A stretch of 64,000 nt of DNA, from contig NZ_JALPKO010000007.1 in NCBI RefSeq assembly GCF_023195885.1, positions 124,001-188,000 on the forward strand, given 5' to 3'. The DNA comes from Methylonatrum kenyense (GTDB taxonomy: Bacteria; Pseudomonadota; Gammaproteobacteria; Nitrococcales; Aquisalimonadaceae). Of this stretch, positions 6,651-52,825 are shown one piece after another. A program made the translations under genes and the position numbers. Position 1 is the first letter of the stretch; every line of letters begins with the position of its first letter. The notes below the pieces were generated by a model that was not told where the DNA came from, did no database searches, and saw only the letters and a program-made list of their open reading frames with translations.

Positions 6651-6848
6651 ATGACGCACTACCACTGCACCGTCGAATTCCGCGATCCCAGCGGCTGCAT
6701 TCGTCATCACATTCTCGATCTGGATGCCAACACCAACGAGGACGCCATCTCTCTTGCGGAGGCCTCGTTGATGGAGAGCCCGAGCGCATCAAATACCGTC
6801 CGCGTCGAGCAGGTAGTCTGCTGGGTCGAGGACGACGAACCGCATTAG
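6651..6848 (+). CDS. Small conserved-looking protein of unknown function
   Basis: I do not recognise this 65-residue protein (MTHYHCTVEFRDPSG...). Start 6651 follows a very strong purine-rich ribosome site (GAGGAGGGGG) 7 nt upstream, which argues that it is translated. The sequence has alternating hydrophobic strands (HCTVEF, RHHILDL, VRVEQVVCWVED) around one helix (EDAISLAEASLM), so a small alpha/beta fold is plausible. It has three His, two Cys and no signal peptide. The TAG stop coincides with the end of a dispersed repeat copy. Confidence 0.6.
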   Translation: MTHYHCTVEFRDPSGCIRHHILDLDANTNEDAISLAEASLMESPSASNTVRVEQVVCWVEDDEPH

Positions 6849-6984
6849 GGAAACACTGAGCCATTTTCGCGCCTGCGCCCGAGACCGGTTCTGGTCATCT
6901 GGCAAGGCGCGGTGCCGGTTCGGTAACCGTAGCGACCGGCCCGGTGACGCAACGCCGCCAGGGGCCAAAACCGGCCGGGCCCAA
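6847..6984 (+). repeat. Truncated copy of the TAGGGAAAC dispersed palindromic repeat (left half)
   Basis: This stretch between a small gene and pilU matches the left half of the full element at 52526-52802: GGGAAACACTGA, then GCGCCCGAGACCGGTT, TGGTCATCTGGCAAGGCGCG and CCAGGGGCCAAAACCGGCCG. The right half and the second inverted end are missing. The perfect hairpin of the full copy is degraded here. The first bases overlap the TAG stop of the preceding gene. Confidence 0.85.
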
Positions 6985-6990
6985 CAGGGC

Positions 6991-8124
6991 TCAGCGCGGC
7001 GGCTCGTCCTCCGACAACAGGCTCATGTCATCGGCGGCGGCCTGCAAGCGCTCTTCCCGGTCATCCGCCGACAAGCGCGCCATCAACCGGACCTCGTTGG
7101 CGGAGTCGGCGTGGCGGATGGCCTCGTCATAGGTAATCTTGCCTTCCGAATACAGTTGGAACAGGTGCTGGTCGAAGGTTCGCATGCCCTGCTCCGGCGA
7201 CCGCTTCATGATTTCCTTCAATTCATGGACCTCGCCGGCTCGAATCTTGTCCTGCACCAGCGGCGTGCCGATCAGGACCTCGACGGCTGGCACGCGGCCC
7301 GAGCCATCGGGCGTGGGTATCAGCTGCTGGGCGATCACGCCCTTCAGGTTCAGCGACAGGTCCATGAACAGCTGGTTATGCCGCTCCGGCGGGAAAAAGT
7401 TGATGATCCGGTCCATCGCCTGGTTGGCGTTGTTGGCATGCAGGGTGGCCAGGCACAGGTGTCCGGTCTCGGCGAAGGCGATGGCGTAGTCCATCGTGTC
7501 CTGGCTGCGGATTTCGCCGATCAGTATCACGTCCGGCGCCTGGCGCAGCGTGTTCTTCAACGCCACCTCGAAGGACGCGGTATCGATACCCACCTCGCGC
7601 TGGGTGACGATGCAGCCGTGATGCCGGTGCAGGTACTCGATCGGGTCCTCGATGGTGATGATGTGGCCGGTACTGTTCTCGTTGCGGTAGCCGATCATTG
7701 ATGCCAGCGAGGTGGACTTACCGGTGCCGGTGCCGCCAACGAAAATCACCAGCCCACGCTTGGTCATTGCCAGGTCGCGCATGATGCCGGGCAGGCCCAG
7801 CTCGTCGATTTCCGGAATCCGGGTCTCGATTCGTCGCAGCACCATGCCGGCCTGATTGCGCTGGTAGAAGGCACTGACCCGGAACCGGCCGACCTCCTTG
7901 GCGCTAATCGCGAAATTGCATTCCCGGTCACGGGCGAAATCCTCGCGCTGCTGGTCGTTCATGATTGCCGTGACCACCCGTTCCGCCTGATCCGGGCTCA
8001 GCGCGGTCTTGGTCACCGGCATGATGCGGCCGGAAACCTTGAGACTGGGCGGCATGCCAGCGGTAATGAACAGGTCAGAAGCCTTCTTGCTGACCATCAG
8101 GTCGAGCAACGCATTGAAGTCCAT
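6991..8124 (-). CDS. pilU: Type IV pilus accessory retraction ATPase
   Basis: The 377-residue protein is a PilT/PilU ATPase. It has Walker A GGTGTGKS (residues 130-137), Asp-box IITIEDPIEYLH, Walker B ILIGEIRSQDT, His-box HLCLATLHANNANQA and a C-terminal extension of about 30 acidic residues (DDREERLQAAADDMSLLSED) typical of PilU. The C-terminal AIRNLIR motif of PilT is absent, which supports PilU. It acts at the inner face of the pilus machine, with PilT, to boost retraction force. It lies 10 nt downstream of pilT in the same operon. Confidence 0.95.
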   Translation of the reverse strand: MDFNALLDLMVSKKASDLFITAGMPPSLKVSGRIMPVTKTALSPDQAERVVTAIMNDQQREDFARDRECNFAISAKEVGRFRVSAFYQRNQAGMVLRRIETRIPEIDELGLPGIMRDLAMTKRGLVIFVGGTGTGKSTSLASMIGYRNENSTGHIITIEDPIEYLHRHHGCIVTQREVGIDTASFEVALKNTLRQAPDVILIGEIRSQDTMDYAIAFAETGHLCLATLHANNANQAMDRIINFFPPERHNQLFMDLSLNLKGVIAQQLIPTPDGSGRVPAVEVLIGTPLVQDKIRAGEVHELKEIMKRSPEQGMRTFDQHLFQLYSEGKITYDEAIRHADSANEVRLMARLSADDREERLQAAADDMSLLSEDEPPR

Positions 8125-8134
8125 AGCAATCGTC

Positions 8135-9172
8135 CTATGTGAAGAGGTCCTTGTTCATCGCCTTCGGCCGTGCGTCCGCCTTGGATACCAGGCCCTGACG
8201 CACCATGCCCTGCAGGCACTGGTCGAGGGTCTGCATGCCCAGCGCCTGGCCAGTCTGGATTGCGGAATACATCTGCGCCACCTTGTCCTCGCGGATCAGG
8301 TTCCGGATGGCCGCGGTGCCGACCATGATCTCGTGGGCCGCGACCCGGCCACCGCCGGACTTCTTCAGCAGGGTCTGCGAGATAACAGCGCGCAGGGATT
8401 CCGAGAGCATCGAGCGGACCATGGATTTCTCGCCGGCCGGGAACACGTCGATGATCCGGTCGATGGTCTTGGCCGCGGAGCTGGTGTGCAGCGTGCCGAA
8501 AACCAGATGGCCCGTCTCGGCGGCGGTCAGCGCAAGGCGAATGGTCTCCAGGTCGCGCAGCTCGCCGACCAGGATCGTGTCCGGATCCTCACGCAATGCC
8601 GAACGCAGGGCCTCGGCAAAACCGAGGGTGTCCTTGTGCACCTCGCGCTGGTTGACCAGGGATTTCTTCGACTCGTGCACGAACTCGATCGGATCCTCGA
8701 TGGTCAGGATGTGCTCGTGGTAATTGCTGTTCTTGTAATCCACCATGGCCGCGAGGGTGGTCGACTTGCCGGAACCGGTCGGCCCGGTCACCAGCACCAG
8801 GCCACGCGGGTTGTCGGCGATGTCACGAAACACGCTGGGGCAATCGAGCTGCTCCAGGGTCAACACGGTGGACGGGATGGTCCGGAACACCGCGCCGGCG
8901 CCGCGATTCTGATTGAACGCGTTGACGCGGAAGCGTGCCAGGCCCGGCAACTCGAACGAGAAGTCGTGCTCGAGGAACTCCTCGTAATCCCGGCGCTGCT
9001 TGTCGTTCATGATGTCGTAGATCAGGGCATGGACCTGCTTGTGCTCCATGGCCGGCAGATTGATCCGACGCACATCACCATCCACGCGAATCATCGGCGG
9101 CAGGCCGGACGACAGATGCAGGTCCGATGCGTTGTTCTTGACACTGAATGCCAGCAGATCCGCGATATCCAT
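8135..9172 (-). CDS. pilT: Type IV pilus retraction ATPase
   Basis: The 345-residue hexameric ATPase depolymerises type IV pili, giving twitching motility. Visible motifs are N-terminal ASDLHLSSG, Walker A GPTGSGKS (residues 130-137), ILTIEDPIEFVHE, Walker B ILVGELRDLET, HLVFGTLHTSSAAKTIDRI and the PilT-specific AIRNLIRE motif in the C-terminal region. The gene is first in pilT-pilU and diverges from yggS, the classic pilT-yggS-proC neighbourhood of Pseudomonas. No pilus chemotaxis genes follow pilU here. Confidence 0.97.
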   Translation of the reverse strand: MDIADLLAFSVKNNASDLHLSSGLPPMIRVDGDVRRINLPAMEHKQVHALIYDIMNDKQRRDYEEFLEHDFSFELPGLARFRVNAFNQNRGAGAVFRTIPSTVLTLEQLDCPSVFRDIADNPRGLVLVTGPTGSGKSTTLAAMVDYKNSNYHEHILTIEDPIEFVHESKKSLVNQREVHKDTLGFAEALRSALREDPDTILVGELRDLETIRLALTAAETGHLVFGTLHTSSAAKTIDRIIDVFPAGEKSMVRSMLSESLRAVISQTLLKKSGGGRVAAHEIMVGTAAIRNLIREDKVAQMYSAIQTGQALGMQTLDQCLQGMVRQGLVSKADARPKAMNKDLFT

Positions 9173-11409: not shown

Positions 11410-11502
11410 GGAAAACACTGACTCGTTCCCGCGTCTGCGCCCGAGACCGGTTTTGCTCAGCGGACTGCAACGCAGGCGTGCGAATAAATCAGCGTTTCCC
11501 TA
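11410..11502 (+). repeat. Internally deleted copy of the dispersed palindromic repeat
   Basis: About 93 bp join the left end of the repeat family (GGAAAACACTGA, GCGTCTGCGCCCGAGACCGG) directly to its right end (CAACGCAGGCGTG, AATCAGCGTTTCCCTA). The middle of about 185 bp is missing. Both inverted ends are kept, as in a non-autonomous element that has lost its interior. It occupies most of the yggT-metX gap. Confidence 0.85.
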
Positions 11503-13832: not shown

Positions 13833-14762
13833 GTGAGTGTGATGTTACTGACCCACGAGAGTTGCCTACGGCATGACACGGGTCCGGGCCACCCCGAAAG
13901 CCCGGAGCGGCTGCGCGCAATCCTGCAACGACTGAACACCGACGAGTTCGATTTCCTGGACTGGCATGAAGCGCCGCGCGTGGAACGGCAGCAGTTACTG
14001 CAGGTTCACGATGCACGCTATGTGGACGCCGTGCTCGACAGCATCCCAGAGGACGGCCTGTCCGCGCTGGACAGCGATACCTGGATCAGTCCCCACTCCG
14101 GCGAGGCCGCGTTGCGTGCGGCCGGTGCAGTCTGCGCCGCAGTCGACGCGGTGATGGCAGGCGAGACCCGTCGCGCCTTCTGCGCGGTGCGTCCGCCGGG
14201 TCACCATGCCGAGCCGGACCATGCCATGGGATTCTGTCTGTTCAACAACGTCGCGGTTGCCGCGGCCCATGCCCGCAATCGTTACCACCTTGATCGTATC
14301 GCAGTAGTCGATTTCGATGTCCATCATGGCAACGGCACGCAGACCATGCTGGCAGGCGACAGGCATTTCCTGTACGTCTCCAGCCATGAGCATCCGCTGT
14401 TCCCCGGTACGGGCATCAACCTGCCACCAGGGATCAACAATATCCTCAACAGCCCTGTCACCGCCAATGCGGGGCCGGGCGAGTTGCGGCGGTTGTACGA
14501 ATCGGAACTGCTGCCGGCAATCCGCCGCTTCGGTCCGCAACTGGTGCTGATATCGGCGGGTTTCGACGCCCACGCGTCGGACCCACTGGCGAATCTCAAC
14601 CTCAGGGCCGAGGATTTCGGCTGGCTGACGCGGGAACTGGTGGCGATCGCCAATCAATTCGCCAACGGCGGCGTCATCGCCACACTGGAAGGTGGTTACG
14701 ACGTCGCAGCACTGGCCGAAAGCGTCGCCGCCCATCTGCATGCCCTGGCCGAAGGGGCTTAA
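13833..14762 (+). CDS. Histone-deacetylase-family amidohydrolase (class II-like)
   Basis: The 309-residue zinc hydrolase shows the full deacetylase set: CLRHDTGPGHPESPERLRAI, the catalytic His pair in RPPGHHAEPDHAMGFCLFNN, metal ligands in VVDFDVHHGNGTQ and ISAGFDAHASDPL, and the terminal TLEGGYDVAALAES loop. Bacterial relatives deacetylate polyamines, acetoin-linked proteins or other acyl-amides, so the substrate is open. GTG 13833 is taken as start because AGGAGGT lies 4 nt before it; ATG 13842 is possible. The TAA stop overlaps a repeat end. Confidence 0.92.
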   Translation: MSVMLLTHESCLRHDTGPGHPESPERLRAILQRLNTDEFDFLDWHEAPRVERQQLLQVHDARYVDAVLDSIPEDGLSALDSDTWISPHSGEAALRAAGAVCAAVDAVMAGETRRAFCAVRPPGHHAEPDHAMGFCLFNNVAVAAAHARNRYHLDRIAVVDFDVHHGNGTQTMLAGDRHFLYVSSHEHPLFPGTGINLPPGINNILNSPVTANAGPGELRRLYESELLPAIRRFGPQLVLISAGFDAHASDPLANLNLRAEDFGWLTRELVAIANQFANGGVIATLEGGYDVAALAESVAAHLHALAEGA

Positions 14763-14790
14763 GGAAACACTGATTTACCTGTGTTTCCTT
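14760..14790. repeat. Minimal hairpin copy of the dispersed repeat end
   Basis: AAGGAAACAC, a 10-nt spacer, and GTGTTTCCTT form a perfect 10-bp inverted repeat matching the two termini of the full element. The stop codon TAA of the deacetylase gene provides the first bases. As RNA it would fold into a stem after the stop codon. Confidence 0.8.
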
Positions 14791-15103
14791 GACTCGGCAC
14801 AAGCGGATCGGTGCCCCGCAGGGCATTTATGCACAATTCCAGTGCCGTGACGGGAAAATGGGCGGCATCTGGAGCACACCGTCCGCCGCTTCATAAGTGC
14901 TTGTAAATTCGACTATTGATCGAAAGCCAGGCGGGCGACCGACAGATCATGCTGCAGTGAACAAATTCCGGAAGCCACATCAGAAAAAGTTTTCCACACA
15001 GTTATCCACAGGCAGGCAGAAGCCTGCATCGTCAGGTGGTTAGCGGTAACAGCTGAAACGAAAAATCAGCTTTAAGGAAACGCGGGAATAGACCAGCGTT
15101 TCC
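14763..15103. other. 341-bp gene-free stretch bounded by two repeat hairpins
   Basis: No coding region with a credible start was seen. The stretch is framed by minimal repeat hairpins at 14760-14790 and 15072-15107. It contains a pair of DnaA-box-like nonamers at 14990-15010 and is more A+T rich than its neighbours. It separates two convergent genes, so promoters are not needed here. Confidence 0.6.
14990..15010 (+). promoter_or_regulatory. Pair of DnaA-box-like nonamers
   Basis: TTTTCCACA (14990-14998) and TTATCCACA (15002-15010) lie in the same orientation with 3 nt between them. TTATCCACA is the exact consensus high-affinity DnaA box; the first differs at one base. No dnaA, dnaN or gidA gene is nearby, so this is unlikely to be oriC. 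A DnaA-titrating or regulatory site is possible, as is chance. Confidence 0.45.
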
Positions 15104-15107
15104 TTAA
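15072..15107. repeat. Minimal hairpin copy of the dispersed repeat end
   Basis: TTAAGGAAACGC and GCGTTTCCTTAA form a perfect 12-bp inverted repeat around a 12-nt loop. The right arm overlaps the TAA stop of the minus-strand gene ending at 15104. It mirrors the hairpin at 14760-14790. Confidence 0.8.
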
Positions 15108-18590: not shown

Positions 18591-18627
18591 AACGCGCAGG
18601 CGCGGGAATTAATCAGTGTTTCCTTAT
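18591..18627 (+). repeat. Solo right end of the dispersed repeat
   Basis: AACGCGCAGGCGCGGGAATT and AATCAGTGTTTCCTTA match the last 37 bp of the full element at 52766-52802. The left end is missing. It lies just before a good TATAAT box and could supply part of that promoter. Confidence 0.75.
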
Positions 18628-26249: not shown

Positions 26250-27179
26250 ATGGAATACAAGGACTATTACAAGACCTTGGGGGTTGGCCGCGACGCCGAC
26301 AAGGACGCGATCAAGCGCGCCTACCGGCGTCTTGCGCGCAAGTATCACCCCGATGTGAGCAAGGAGGCGGATGCCGAGACTCGGTTCAAGGAGATCGGCG
26401 AGGCCTACGAGGTGCTGTCGGATCCGGAGAAACGCCAGGCTTACGACCAGCTCGGTGCCAATTGGCGCCAGGGTCAGGATTTCCGGCCGCCACCGGGCTG
26501 GCAGCAGCAGTATACCGCCGGTGGCAACGGTTTCGGTGGCTTCGAAGGCGGTGCCGAGTTCAGCGACTTTTTCGAAAGCCTGTTCGGCGACGCAGGCCCA
26601 TTCGGCCATGGCGGCTTCCGCGCCCGGGGCCGGCGACCGCCAGCCCGTGGCAACGACCACCGCGCCGAGATCCAGGTCAGCCTGAACGAAGCCTATTCCG
26701 GCGTCAGCCGCACACTGAACCTCAGCGATGGCCGTGGCGGATCGCGCAAGCTGCGGGTGAAAATCCCGGCCGGCGTCACCGATGGACAGACCATTCGCCT
26801 GACCGGTCAGGGGGGGCGTGGCCCGGGCGGCGCCGGTGACCTGCTGCTGACGGTCGGCATTGCACCACACCCGACGCTGCGGCTCGACGGACGCGATGTT
26901 CACCTGGAATTGCCGATCACCCCGTGGGAGGCCGCCCTCGGCGCCCAGCTCAAGGTGCCGACCCTGGGCGGCTGGGTGGATATGCGCATACCGGCAGGTT
27001 CGCAGAGCGGGCAACGCCTGCGACTCAAGGGCAAGGGCCTGCCCGGCAAGCCGCCCGGTTCGCAACTGATCACGCTGAAGCTGGTGACACCGCCAGCGGA
27101 TACCGACAAGGCGCGCAAGCTCTACGAACAGATGCGCCGCGAACTACCGATGAACCCACGAGAGACTTTGACTCTATAG
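26250..27179 (+). CDS. CbpA-like DnaJ-family co-chaperone
   Basis: The 309-residue protein begins with a J domain ([23 protein letters not shown] motif in KYHPDVSKE), then a Gly/Phe-rich linker ([20 protein letters not shown]), and two beta-barrel substrate-binding domains ([36 protein letters not shown]). The Cys-rich zinc finger of true DnaJ is missing, so it is a CbpA/type II member that stimulates DnaK. ATG 26250 follows GGGAGAA 4 nt upstream. The TAG stop coincides with a repeat end. Confidence 0.93.
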
Positions 27180-27201
27180 GGAAACGCTGATTGATTCCCT
27201 A
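27177..27201 (+). repeat. Solo left end of the dispersed repeat
   Basis: TAGGGAAACGCTGATTGATT matches the left 20 bp of the element family, and TTCCCTA follows as a short inverted mate. It starts on the TAG stop of the cbpA-like gene and ends just upstream of the protease gene ribosome site. Confidence 0.65.
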
Positions 27202-28604: not shown

Positions 28605-28733
28605 CTTTCAGTTTTCAGTTTTCAGTTTTCAGTTTTCAGTTTTCAGTTTTCAGTTTTCAGAAAATCATACGGCTTTATCTGCGCACCTCGATGGACCCGC
28701 ATGCCTTCTGAACACTGAAAACTGAAGCCTGAA
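28605..28733. repeat. TTTTCAG tandem array with inverted CTGAAAA arm
   Basis: Eight head-to-tail units of (T)TTTCAG at 28605-28660 are followed by about 45 bp of unique sequence and then CTGAACACTGAAAACTGAAG and CCTGAAAACTTC on the right. The left and right arms are complementary, so the whole could fold as one long stem. The region lies between two convergent genes. A second member of the family is at 41892-42002. Confidence 0.85.
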
Positions 28734-28746
28734 AACTTCTTTCTAT

Positions 28747-29609
<863 letters not shown>

Positions 29610-32112: not shown

Positions 32113-32433
32113 ATGGTCACCGAGACGCAACCGAACGATCTGGCCGACCGGCTTGCCGCCGGCGAGCCGCTAACCCTGCTTGACGTCCGCGAGCACTGGG
32201 AAGTCGAGCATGCGGCGATTGACGGGATTCTGCACATTCCAATGGGAGAAGTCGTGGCGCGCCGCGAGGAAATCCCGGACGACAGGCCGTTGGTGTGCGT
32301 CTGCCATCATGGCATGCGCAGTGCGCAGGTGGCGGCCTACCTGGAGCAGCAGGGCTGGACCGGGGTGGAAAACCTCAGCGGCGGCATTGATGCCTGGTCA
32401 CAGACCGTCGATCCCGGCATCCCCCGTTACTAG
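32113..32433 (+). CDS. Single-domain rhodanese-like protein
   Basis: The 106-residue protein has one rhodanese domain: LLDVREHWEVEHAAIDGILH, active-site loop VCVCHHGMRSAQVAAYLEQQ with Cys near residue 64, and the terminal VENLSGGIDAWSQTVD. It is a GlpE-like sulfurtransferase candidate. It starts 1 nt after the methyltransferase gene; this Pcm-rhodanese pair is usually followed by tolC, which is absent here. The TAG stop coincides with a repeat end. Confidence 0.92.
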   Translation: MVTETQPNDLADRLAAGEPLTLLDVREHWEVEHAAIDGILHIPMGEVVARREEIPDDRPLVCVCHHGMRSAQVAAYLEQQGWTGVENLSGGIDAWSQTVDPGIPRY

Positions 32434-32485
32434 GGAAACACTGATTTGTTCGCGCGCCGGCTTTCGAATCGGTCCGCACAATCCT
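32431..32485 (+). repeat. Partial left end of the dispersed repeat
   Basis: TAGGGAAACACTGATTTGTT and then CGCGCGCCGG match the left part of the element family over about 30 bp; the remaining sequence is diverged. It begins on the TAG stop of the rhodanese gene and runs to the convergent waaA stop. Confidence 0.7.
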
Positions 32486-36104: not shown

Positions 36105-36179
36105 GATCGCGGCGCGGGGCTCCTGATGCCGGCAAAAACTGGTTGCGGAGTATATCATTGGCGCCAGTTCACCGATTGA

Positions 36180-36255
36180 AGCGGCACCGTGCCTTGCCAG
36201 ATAACCAAAACCAGTCTCGGGCGCAGGCGCCAGAATAGATCACCATTTCCCTAAG
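36180..36255 (-). repeat. Left-half copy of the dispersed repeat, inverted
   Basis: On the minus strand this reads TTAGGGAAATGGTGATCTAT, then GCGCCTGCGCCCGAGACTGG and TTGGTTATCTGGCAAGGCAC, matching the first 75 bp of the full element. The right half is absent. It lies between the divergent hldE and lpxL genes. Confidence 0.85.
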
Positions 36256-41895: not shown

Positions 41896-42002
41896 GGAAA
41901 GTTTTCAGTGGTTCAGTGTTCAGATTTCAGACCAAACCCAGAGGCAAACGACGGCCCTGTCTGAACACTGAACACTGAAACCTGAAAACTTCAGTTCCCT
42001 AT
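41892..42002. repeat. TTTTCAG/CTGAAAA inverted repeat element filling the peptidase-pqqE gap
   Basis: The left arm reads GTTTTCAGTGGTTCAGTGTT CAG-rich units and the right arm CTGAACACTGAACACTGAAA followed by CCTGAAAACTTC. The outer ends ATAGGGAA (41892-41899) and TTCCCTAT (41995-42002) are complementary. Both neighbouring stop codons, TAG of the peptidase and TAG of pqqE on the other strand, lie inside these ends. The right arm matches that of the array at 28605-28733. Confidence 0.85.
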
Positions 42003-52525: not shown

Positions 52526-52802
52526 TAAGGAAACACTAATTTATTCTCGCGTCTGCGCCCGAGACCGGTTTTGGTCATCTGGCAAGGCGCGGTGCCGGTT
52601 CGGTAGCTTGAGCTACCGAACCGGTGGCGCAATACAGCCAGGGGCCAAAACCGGCCGGGCCCTTTGGGTTGGGCCGCATTTTTCCCGACTGCCGCGTTGC
52701 GCTGCTTGACCGCAGAATGACTGCGGCGCTGCGCAGCGCGCCTTGCCTCGGAAAAAATGCGGACTCCAACGCAGGCGTGAGAAAAAAGTCAGTGTTTCCT
52801 TC
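52526..52802 (+). mobile_element. Full-length copy (about 277 bp) of a MITE-like palindromic element
   Basis: The 393-bp glpK-glpD gap is mostly this element. Ends are inverted: TAAGGAAACACTAATTTATT on the left and, reversed, GAAGGAAACACTGACTTTTT on the right. Inside there is a perfect 14-bp hairpin (arm CCGGTTCGGTAGCT, 52595-52608 with 52611-52624), CCAGGGGCCAAAACCGGCCG, and a second imperfect palindrome around GCTGCGCAGCG. No coding capacity is present. At least eight partial copies occur in this window. The ends are preceded by TA, suggesting TA target use, so a transposase encoded elsewhere probably moved it. Confidence 0.85.
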
Positions 52803-52825
52803 AGGAAGCGAAGACCGGGCAAGTC

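Follow-up and report, generated by a model that had tools for sequence, protein, structure and literature searches.

The 64,000-nucleotide stretch of Methylonatrum kenyense DNA analysed here (the window) carries a full copy of a dispersed palindromic repeat that is, as judged from sequence, almost certainly a mobile MITE of the IS5 type. We think it probable that it is an IS5-moved MITE whose two-armed palindrome has its halves kept matched by a hairpin-based DNA process. The element goes beyond an ordinary MITE in that its core is widespread, its stems are divergent yet paired, and one copy (L039) joins a near-consensus core to new mirrored ends. The window belongs to a 2.95-Mb draft genome (G000); G000, G001, G002 and G003 represent one genus, and G004 and G011 belong to the same family.

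Most copies of the element are flanked on both sides by cTAG or tTAA placed directly before GGAAAC. GG is therefore where the element begins, and the adjoining four bases are a YTAR target duplication. The preliminary description had given the full copy about 277 bp and inverted ends beginning TAAGG or TAGGG; the inverted ends are real, but the element proper is shorter and starts at GG, and the TTAA or CTAG next to it comes from target duplication and lies outside the inverted repeat. Both termini are GGAAACACTGATTTATTC. The full copy is situated between the divergent genes for glycerol kinase (glpK, minus strand) and glycerol-3-phosphate dehydrogenase (plus strand). Its parts, together with the other copies in the window, are listed in Table 1.

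Table 1. Parts of the full copy and further copies of the element, in window positions
Feature	Position	Strand	Remarks
Element proper, full copy	52529-52799	+	271 bp
Left target duplication, TTAA	52525-52528		right flank is TTCA (52800-52803), so non-identical in this copy
Left terminal inverted repeat, GGAAACACTAATTTATTC	52529-52546	+	resembles ends of IS5-family elements
Right terminal inverted repeat	52782-52799	-	
Arm 1, long hairpin (predicted fold)	52556-52661	-	motif CTGGCAAGGCG ... CGCAAYACAGCCAG; mirrors arm 2
Arm 2, long hairpin (predicted fold)	52668-52769	+	motif GTTGCG..GCTTG...CGCTGCGC..CGCCTTG
Half copy, left	6846-6982	+	blastn E 7e-37; shorter remnant at the same site in G002
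Internally deleted copy, both ends kept	11410-11502	+	blastn 11413-11499 in two pieces, E 2e-9 and 9e-7
End-to-end deletion remnant	14760-14790	+	blastn 14760-14777, E 0.34, weak alone
End-to-end deletion remnant, TTAA on both sides	15072-15107	.	blastn 15080-15106, E 0.13, weak alone
Single copy end	18594-18626	-	blastn E 5e-5
End-to-end deletion remnant, 25 bp	27177-27201	+	two joined ends by eye; no BLAST match
Left end of a copy	32431-32485	+	blastn 32431-32473, E 0.007, weak alone
Left part of a copy	36178-36255	-	blastn minus strand 36178-36253, E 1e-16

Copies were sought within the window by blastn with lax scoring. All nine stretches previously assigned to the family were recovered, the one at 27177-27201 by eye only, and the copy at 11410, said to retain both ends and to have lost its middle, is indeed an internal-deletion derivative. 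What makes the short stretches credible is the genome-wide abundance of the 14-mer end TARGGAARCRCTGA: it was counted 284 times with one mismatch or none, as against a single occurrence of the reversed control. Several of the single-end sites that were fetched are end-to-end deletions. In the whole of G000 there are at least 40 places of at least 160 bp with 82-95% identity to the window copy, a lower bound with 40 of 215 first-look candidates scored. Both canonical ends are present at 34 of these places; the other six comprise two cores with other ends (L039 and L040) and four truncated copies (L042, L045, L046 and L047). The family is thus MITE-like, as proposed earlier, with defined ends, a YTAR duplication, dispersed copies, deletion derivatives and no internal transposase; the element is short (271 bp), carries no transposase and is present in many dispersed copies.

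Several arrangements of repeats were seen along the way. At two places in G001 (C127:93959-94503 and C143:12246-12793) a pair of copies lies head to tail. Two copies in G000 (L195 at 362-758 and L196 at 473-808, on C6 and C12) have a GTGGGTCAAGCGMAGCGGACCCACGCGGTGTGATC-type hairpin repeat within the core, and at L194 (G000:C2:117509-120726) canonical ends face inward 3.2 kb apart and enclose a truncated copy. The window also contains short TTTCAG-type repeats, direct and inverted, at 28606-28739 and 41904-41992, and an array of a GGCTCG-like 6-bp unit at 29087-29373 with 16 overlapping 59-nt matches.

The genome-wide search and copy alignment that the preliminary description had recommended defined both the ends and a 4-bp target duplication. 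Among the 34 copies with canonical ends, YTAR was found at 28 left ends and 25 right ends. The flanking 4-mers were identical in 17 of the 34 (permuted mean 7.8, maximum 16 in 5000 permutations) and agreed at three or more of the four bases in 27. The element accordingly possesses terminal inverted repeats with a target-site duplication. Insertion into a stop codon restores a stop because YTAR includes TAA or TAG. TAR together with an inward-reading open frame of 100 codons or more was present at 29 of the 68 ends, and 15 of these 29 frames end exactly at TAR, where one third would be expected (p 0.03); at L009, L024 and L025 frames stop at TAR on both sides. The effect is modest, and GC-rich open frames are not all genes.

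Site occupancy was compared with that in relatives. At L011 a copy is present in G000 and absent from the corresponding locus of G002, and G001 has a copy where the window has none, at 8123-8140; at both sites the flanks of the relatives are too diverged (about 80%) for base-exact junctions. The 11410 site and the L039 locus are occupied in relatives as well, and at the former G002 has a full-length copy in the orientation opposite to that of the window copy. A conserved immobile RNA gene, which the preliminary description had named as the finding that would overturn a mobile element, does not match this picture: the element occupies many sites, and its occupancy differs at the two sites examined and is shared at others.

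A search with PF01609 gave matches in two of six genomes, G001 and G011, and none in G000. Of the G011 proteins, the better one, 340 aa long, belongs to the IS5 family of transposases (NF033581, E 6e-102; DDE_Tnp_1, DUF772), and its relatives at E 1e-40 were present in five of 54 genomes from the order. Alignment of four intact copies in G004 delimited an element of about 1.2 kb with the ends GGAAGCGCTGATCTAATGCC and GGAAACGCTGATTTATTCGCCTGC, which an automatic inverted-end search had missed. Three of the four have identical YTAR duplications. The MITE ends match those of the G004 element over about 18 bp at the right end and 12 bp at the left. Autonomous elements with matching ends and target exist in both G004 and G011. 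The earlier expectation that a transposase must be supplied from elsewhere is thereby borne out in the genomes of relatives. The insertion sequence shares its terminal repeat and YTAR duplication with the MITE and differs from it in its length of about 1.2 kb and in encoding the 340-aa transposase.

An IS5-family DDE transposase would recognise the GGAARCRCTGA... repeats in trans and insert the element at YTAR (CTAG/TTAA), duplicating those 4 bp, and such a transposase presumably moved the copies in G000. No related transposase was found at E 1e-40 in G000, G001, G002 or G003, so current mobility in G000 is unproven. The transposase of the genus may have been lost, may be missing from the drafts or may be a more distant one. 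An IS4-family element of G001 has TGTCCGG ends and is flanked by CTAG on either side. For the other end types described below, a scan for IS-sized pairs gave only the insertion sequence of L218, and no transposases belonging to these ends were found.

The predicted fold of the window copy is an outer stem around two mirrored long hairpins, with an energy of -174.6 kcal/mol compared with -106 ± 5.3 kcal/mol for shuffled sequences (z -13). Elements in other genera, whose stem sequences are quite different, are predicted to fold in the same way. Alignment of 24 arm-2 sequences, that of the window copy included, revealed the invariant motifs GTTG.G..GCTTG, CGCTGCGC and CGCCT.G and double changes in 18 of 28 pairs. 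The corresponding covariance model matched arm 2 of the window copy with E 6.5e-27, this being one of the 24 model sequences, and arm 1 on the minus strand with E 0.008. At E 0.001 the model detected the arm in 74 of 369 Gammaproteobacteria genomes, with about 0.4 chance matches expected among the 369 if the rough E-values hold; at 1e-5 it did so in 29 of the 398 genomes of Pseudomonadota, including 15 from other classes. Of 29 class-level loci, 21 have a second, inverted arm no more than 60 nt away from the first (E up to 0.1), and none was reported in the remaining eight. Over 57 arms, 92.8% of cells are paired and 26 of the 28 pairs have changed on both sides. The covariation score is 0.711, as against 0.167 for shuffled and at most 0.137 for slid alignments, the alignment having been fitted to the structure.

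So strong a predicted fold might be expected of a structured RNA or a regulatory element (such as a bidirectional terminator or an mRNA stabiliser) that has spread as a repeat and whose pairing is selected as RNA. We disfavour this explanation and regard it as highly unlikely. Two copies do lie within larger terminator-like palindromes, judging by the folds. Folding favours the plus strand, which forms the more stable structure of the two strands in 75 of 100 copies, by a mean of 7 kcal/mol, and RNAalifold gave -93.9 for the plus and -80.6 for the minus strand of the G000 copies. In the inner arm G.U cells number 100 against 21 A.C, largely at invariant T-G positions. The strand preference and the inner-arm G.U excess hint at an RNA-level constraint. 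In the outer arm stem, however, G.U (11 of 624 cells) is as rare as A.C (9), which favours a DNA-level process, and the single-sided changes among the G000 copies (28 G.U and 19 A.C events) are not clearly different. No Rfam family except a tRNA reached its gathering score in the window; between 52400 and 52900 the lowest E was 0.0027, at 21 bits against a cut-off of 123. The target duplications and IS5-type ends also indicate mobility.

Within a copy the two ends match one another more closely than ends taken from different copies do. We took 100 elements of 255-284 bp from 114 pairs chosen by end pattern, without hand curation. Over their first 20 bases, left and right ends are the same at 1812 of 2000 positions, whereas ends paired across copies agree at a mean of 1556 and a maximum of 1602 positions (2000 permutations), although the permutations take no account of common descent, and part of the paired variation consists of inherited differences between subfamilies. 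In 32 G000 copies, deviations from the consensus comprise 17 on the left only, 26 on the right only, 29 matching doubles and 8 non-matching doubles. The strongest cases are private to single copies. The first is L039, with changes at 2 of 205 core positions, the fewest of 36 copies, and at 11 of 28 and 13 of 29 stem positions, the two stems matching each other. L040 has 9 of 205 core changes and stems changed at 20 of 28 and 18 of 29 positions, these being approximate since the arm is one base longer; the values for L030 are 5 of 205, 8 of 28 and 8 of 29. Neither a 22-mer from the L039 end nor a 25-mer from the L040 end occurs elsewhere in the four genomes of the genus with up to three mismatches.

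Matched ends are also what an ordinary IS5-family MITE would show if they descended from several master copies and were selected by the transposase, with no special copying involved. The variants paired at positions 4, 5, 7, 12, 13 and 14 are common to many copies and genomes, as this explanation predicts, and MITEPsy1, with its CTAG/YTAA target duplications, is a precedent for it in the available text (PMC3189936). It leaves unexplained, however, the paired change between genera deep in the arms, as well as L039 and L040 with their near-consensus cores and unique matched ends, and we judge it somewhat unlikely.

The explanation that we prefer adds a hairpin step to IS5-type transposition. A change on one side of the element would be copied to the other, either by template switching at the fork or by repair of mismatches in a hairpin intermediate. 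Being a palindrome of palindromes, the element would have its halves kept matched in this way, and such copying would explain how stems can differ between copies and genera and still be paired. Hairpin-based homogenisation of the halves is likely. In the available text of two studies, template switching between inverted-repeat arms homogenises the arms and inverts the spacer (PMC8604942), and template switching creates and maintains hairpin stems (PMC8794818). The inverted orientation of the G002 copy at the 11410 site is in line with such spacer inversion. Palindrome maintenance by itself does not account for the conserved motifs of the arms.

At the L039 locus G001 and G002 have canonical-ended copies, and by eye the G000 copy has an extra, perfect 26-bp outer inverted repeat; given this repeat, the L039 core may have been inserted into an existing palindrome. 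No relative covers the flanks of L040. The canonical-ended copies at the L039 locus (L252 in G002:C2 and L253 in G001:C106) contain the repeat GGTTCCGGAGCCGGCATCC.

The same core stands behind many different ends. The model found 38 loci beyond the genome of the window; seven were too short, and 31 were tested for an enclosing inverted pair. Such a pair, spanning 264-299 bp, was present in 29, the exceptions being L277 and L296. The ends across loci include GGAARC..., GGAAGGTCTGC, TGTCCTGTCTC, TACTCTTTCAAGG, TGTACTGCGTCACTCC, GAGCCTATCTCATAAAATCC and GAACCTGTTCAAAGTC as well as others, and G034 carries both GGAAAC-type and TGTRCTG-type elements (L075 and L076). Inspection by eye showed a YTAR 4-mer next to both ends at 13 of these 29 loci, next to one end at 13 more and next to neither at three (L280, L288 and L295). 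The core pattern matched 87 stretches in public genomes, all labelled Ectothiorhodospiraceae, Thioalkalivibrio or Aquisalimonas. The window copy had no match in plasmid and phage collections; a 64-bp stretch of Azotobacter chroococcum was the single match to an element from G074, and one from G263 had none. Two end patterns found nothing in viral contigs, and the two-armed core was absent from the IS5-family IS end sequences that were read. A search of open-access literature found no description of this core.

One core behind many outer stems could mean that the core itself is mobile and enters the loops of existing palindromes, the different ends being different target palindromes. L036 and L044 (G000:C8 and C23), which lie in the loops of larger terminator-like palindromes, are in keeping with such insertion. 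Against it, the enclosing pairs are similar in span and are bordered by YTAR to the extent given above. Four coreless small canonical palindromes (L199, L200, L205 and L206) were considered as empty core targets and rejected: by eye they keep pieces of the core, have differing junctions and look like deletions. We regard a mobile core as quite unlikely. The palindrome flanks of L036 and L044 resemble each other, and their stems differ yet pair.

For an IS5-moved MITE with hairpin-matched halves, mirror-copying could give the same core new terminal repeats, and hence new transposases, in one step. Perhaps transposases have been changed through a mirror-copied new end, as L039, L040 and the spread of ends would suggest. 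More tentatively, it is possible, though we would not assume it, that the elements form a phylum-wide MITE lineage defined, rather than by its ends, by a two-armed core that is conserved almost solely in structure, that repeatedly switches transposase (with IS5-like and other ends) and whose arm motifs are bound by a widespread host factor.

MITEs are normally bound to one parental insertion sequence via their ends. If it is true that one core stands behind many ends across the Pseudomonadota, a non-autonomous element need not disappear with its transposase but can move on to a different one, and the palindrome of the element would be a concrete, testable route for doing so. Since each copy holds its own paired record, the copies also form a natural data set for studying hairpin-templated mutation in bacteria.

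Among known systems, MITEPsy1 of Pseudomonas syringae resembles the element in being non-autonomous, in one of its ends (GGAAGGTCTGAAAAAGCC) and in inserting at CTAG or YTAA, where it duplicates 4 nt; it is thought to derive from the IS5-family ISPsy2, and its transposition in vivo has been reported (PMC3189936). At 100 nt it is, unlike the element, too short for a two-armed core, and the available text describes no end-exchange or covariation (PMC3189936). QMITE1 and QMITE2 of Coxiella burnetii are likewise high-copy, predicted very stable long palindromes with truncated forms, but QMITE2 has 7-9 bp direct repeats, and no YTAR target or widely shared core is reported for the QMITEs in the available text (PMC5896051). 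REP and REPIN sequences, which are moved by RAYTs, are also dispersed hairpin-forming non-autonomous repeats, but in the available text they have short hairpins, GTAG/GTGG motifs and a Y1 transposase, in contrast to the long arms, DDE-type ends and target duplication of the element (PMC6006769). Membership of the REPIN/RAYT system was rejected on the GGAARC ends, the YTAR duplication and the arms of about 100 nt. Elements of the IS200/IS605 type and their PATE derivatives have neither terminal inverted repeats nor target duplications. Membership of that group was rejected too, terminal repeats and duplications being present.

A second outer-stem type, GGCAGCGCGGAGCCC, was seen in G038 at L067, L068, L070, L072 and L073, at L067 on one side only. 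The G038 copies with this stem share further flanking hairpins and apparently belong to a larger composite repeat.
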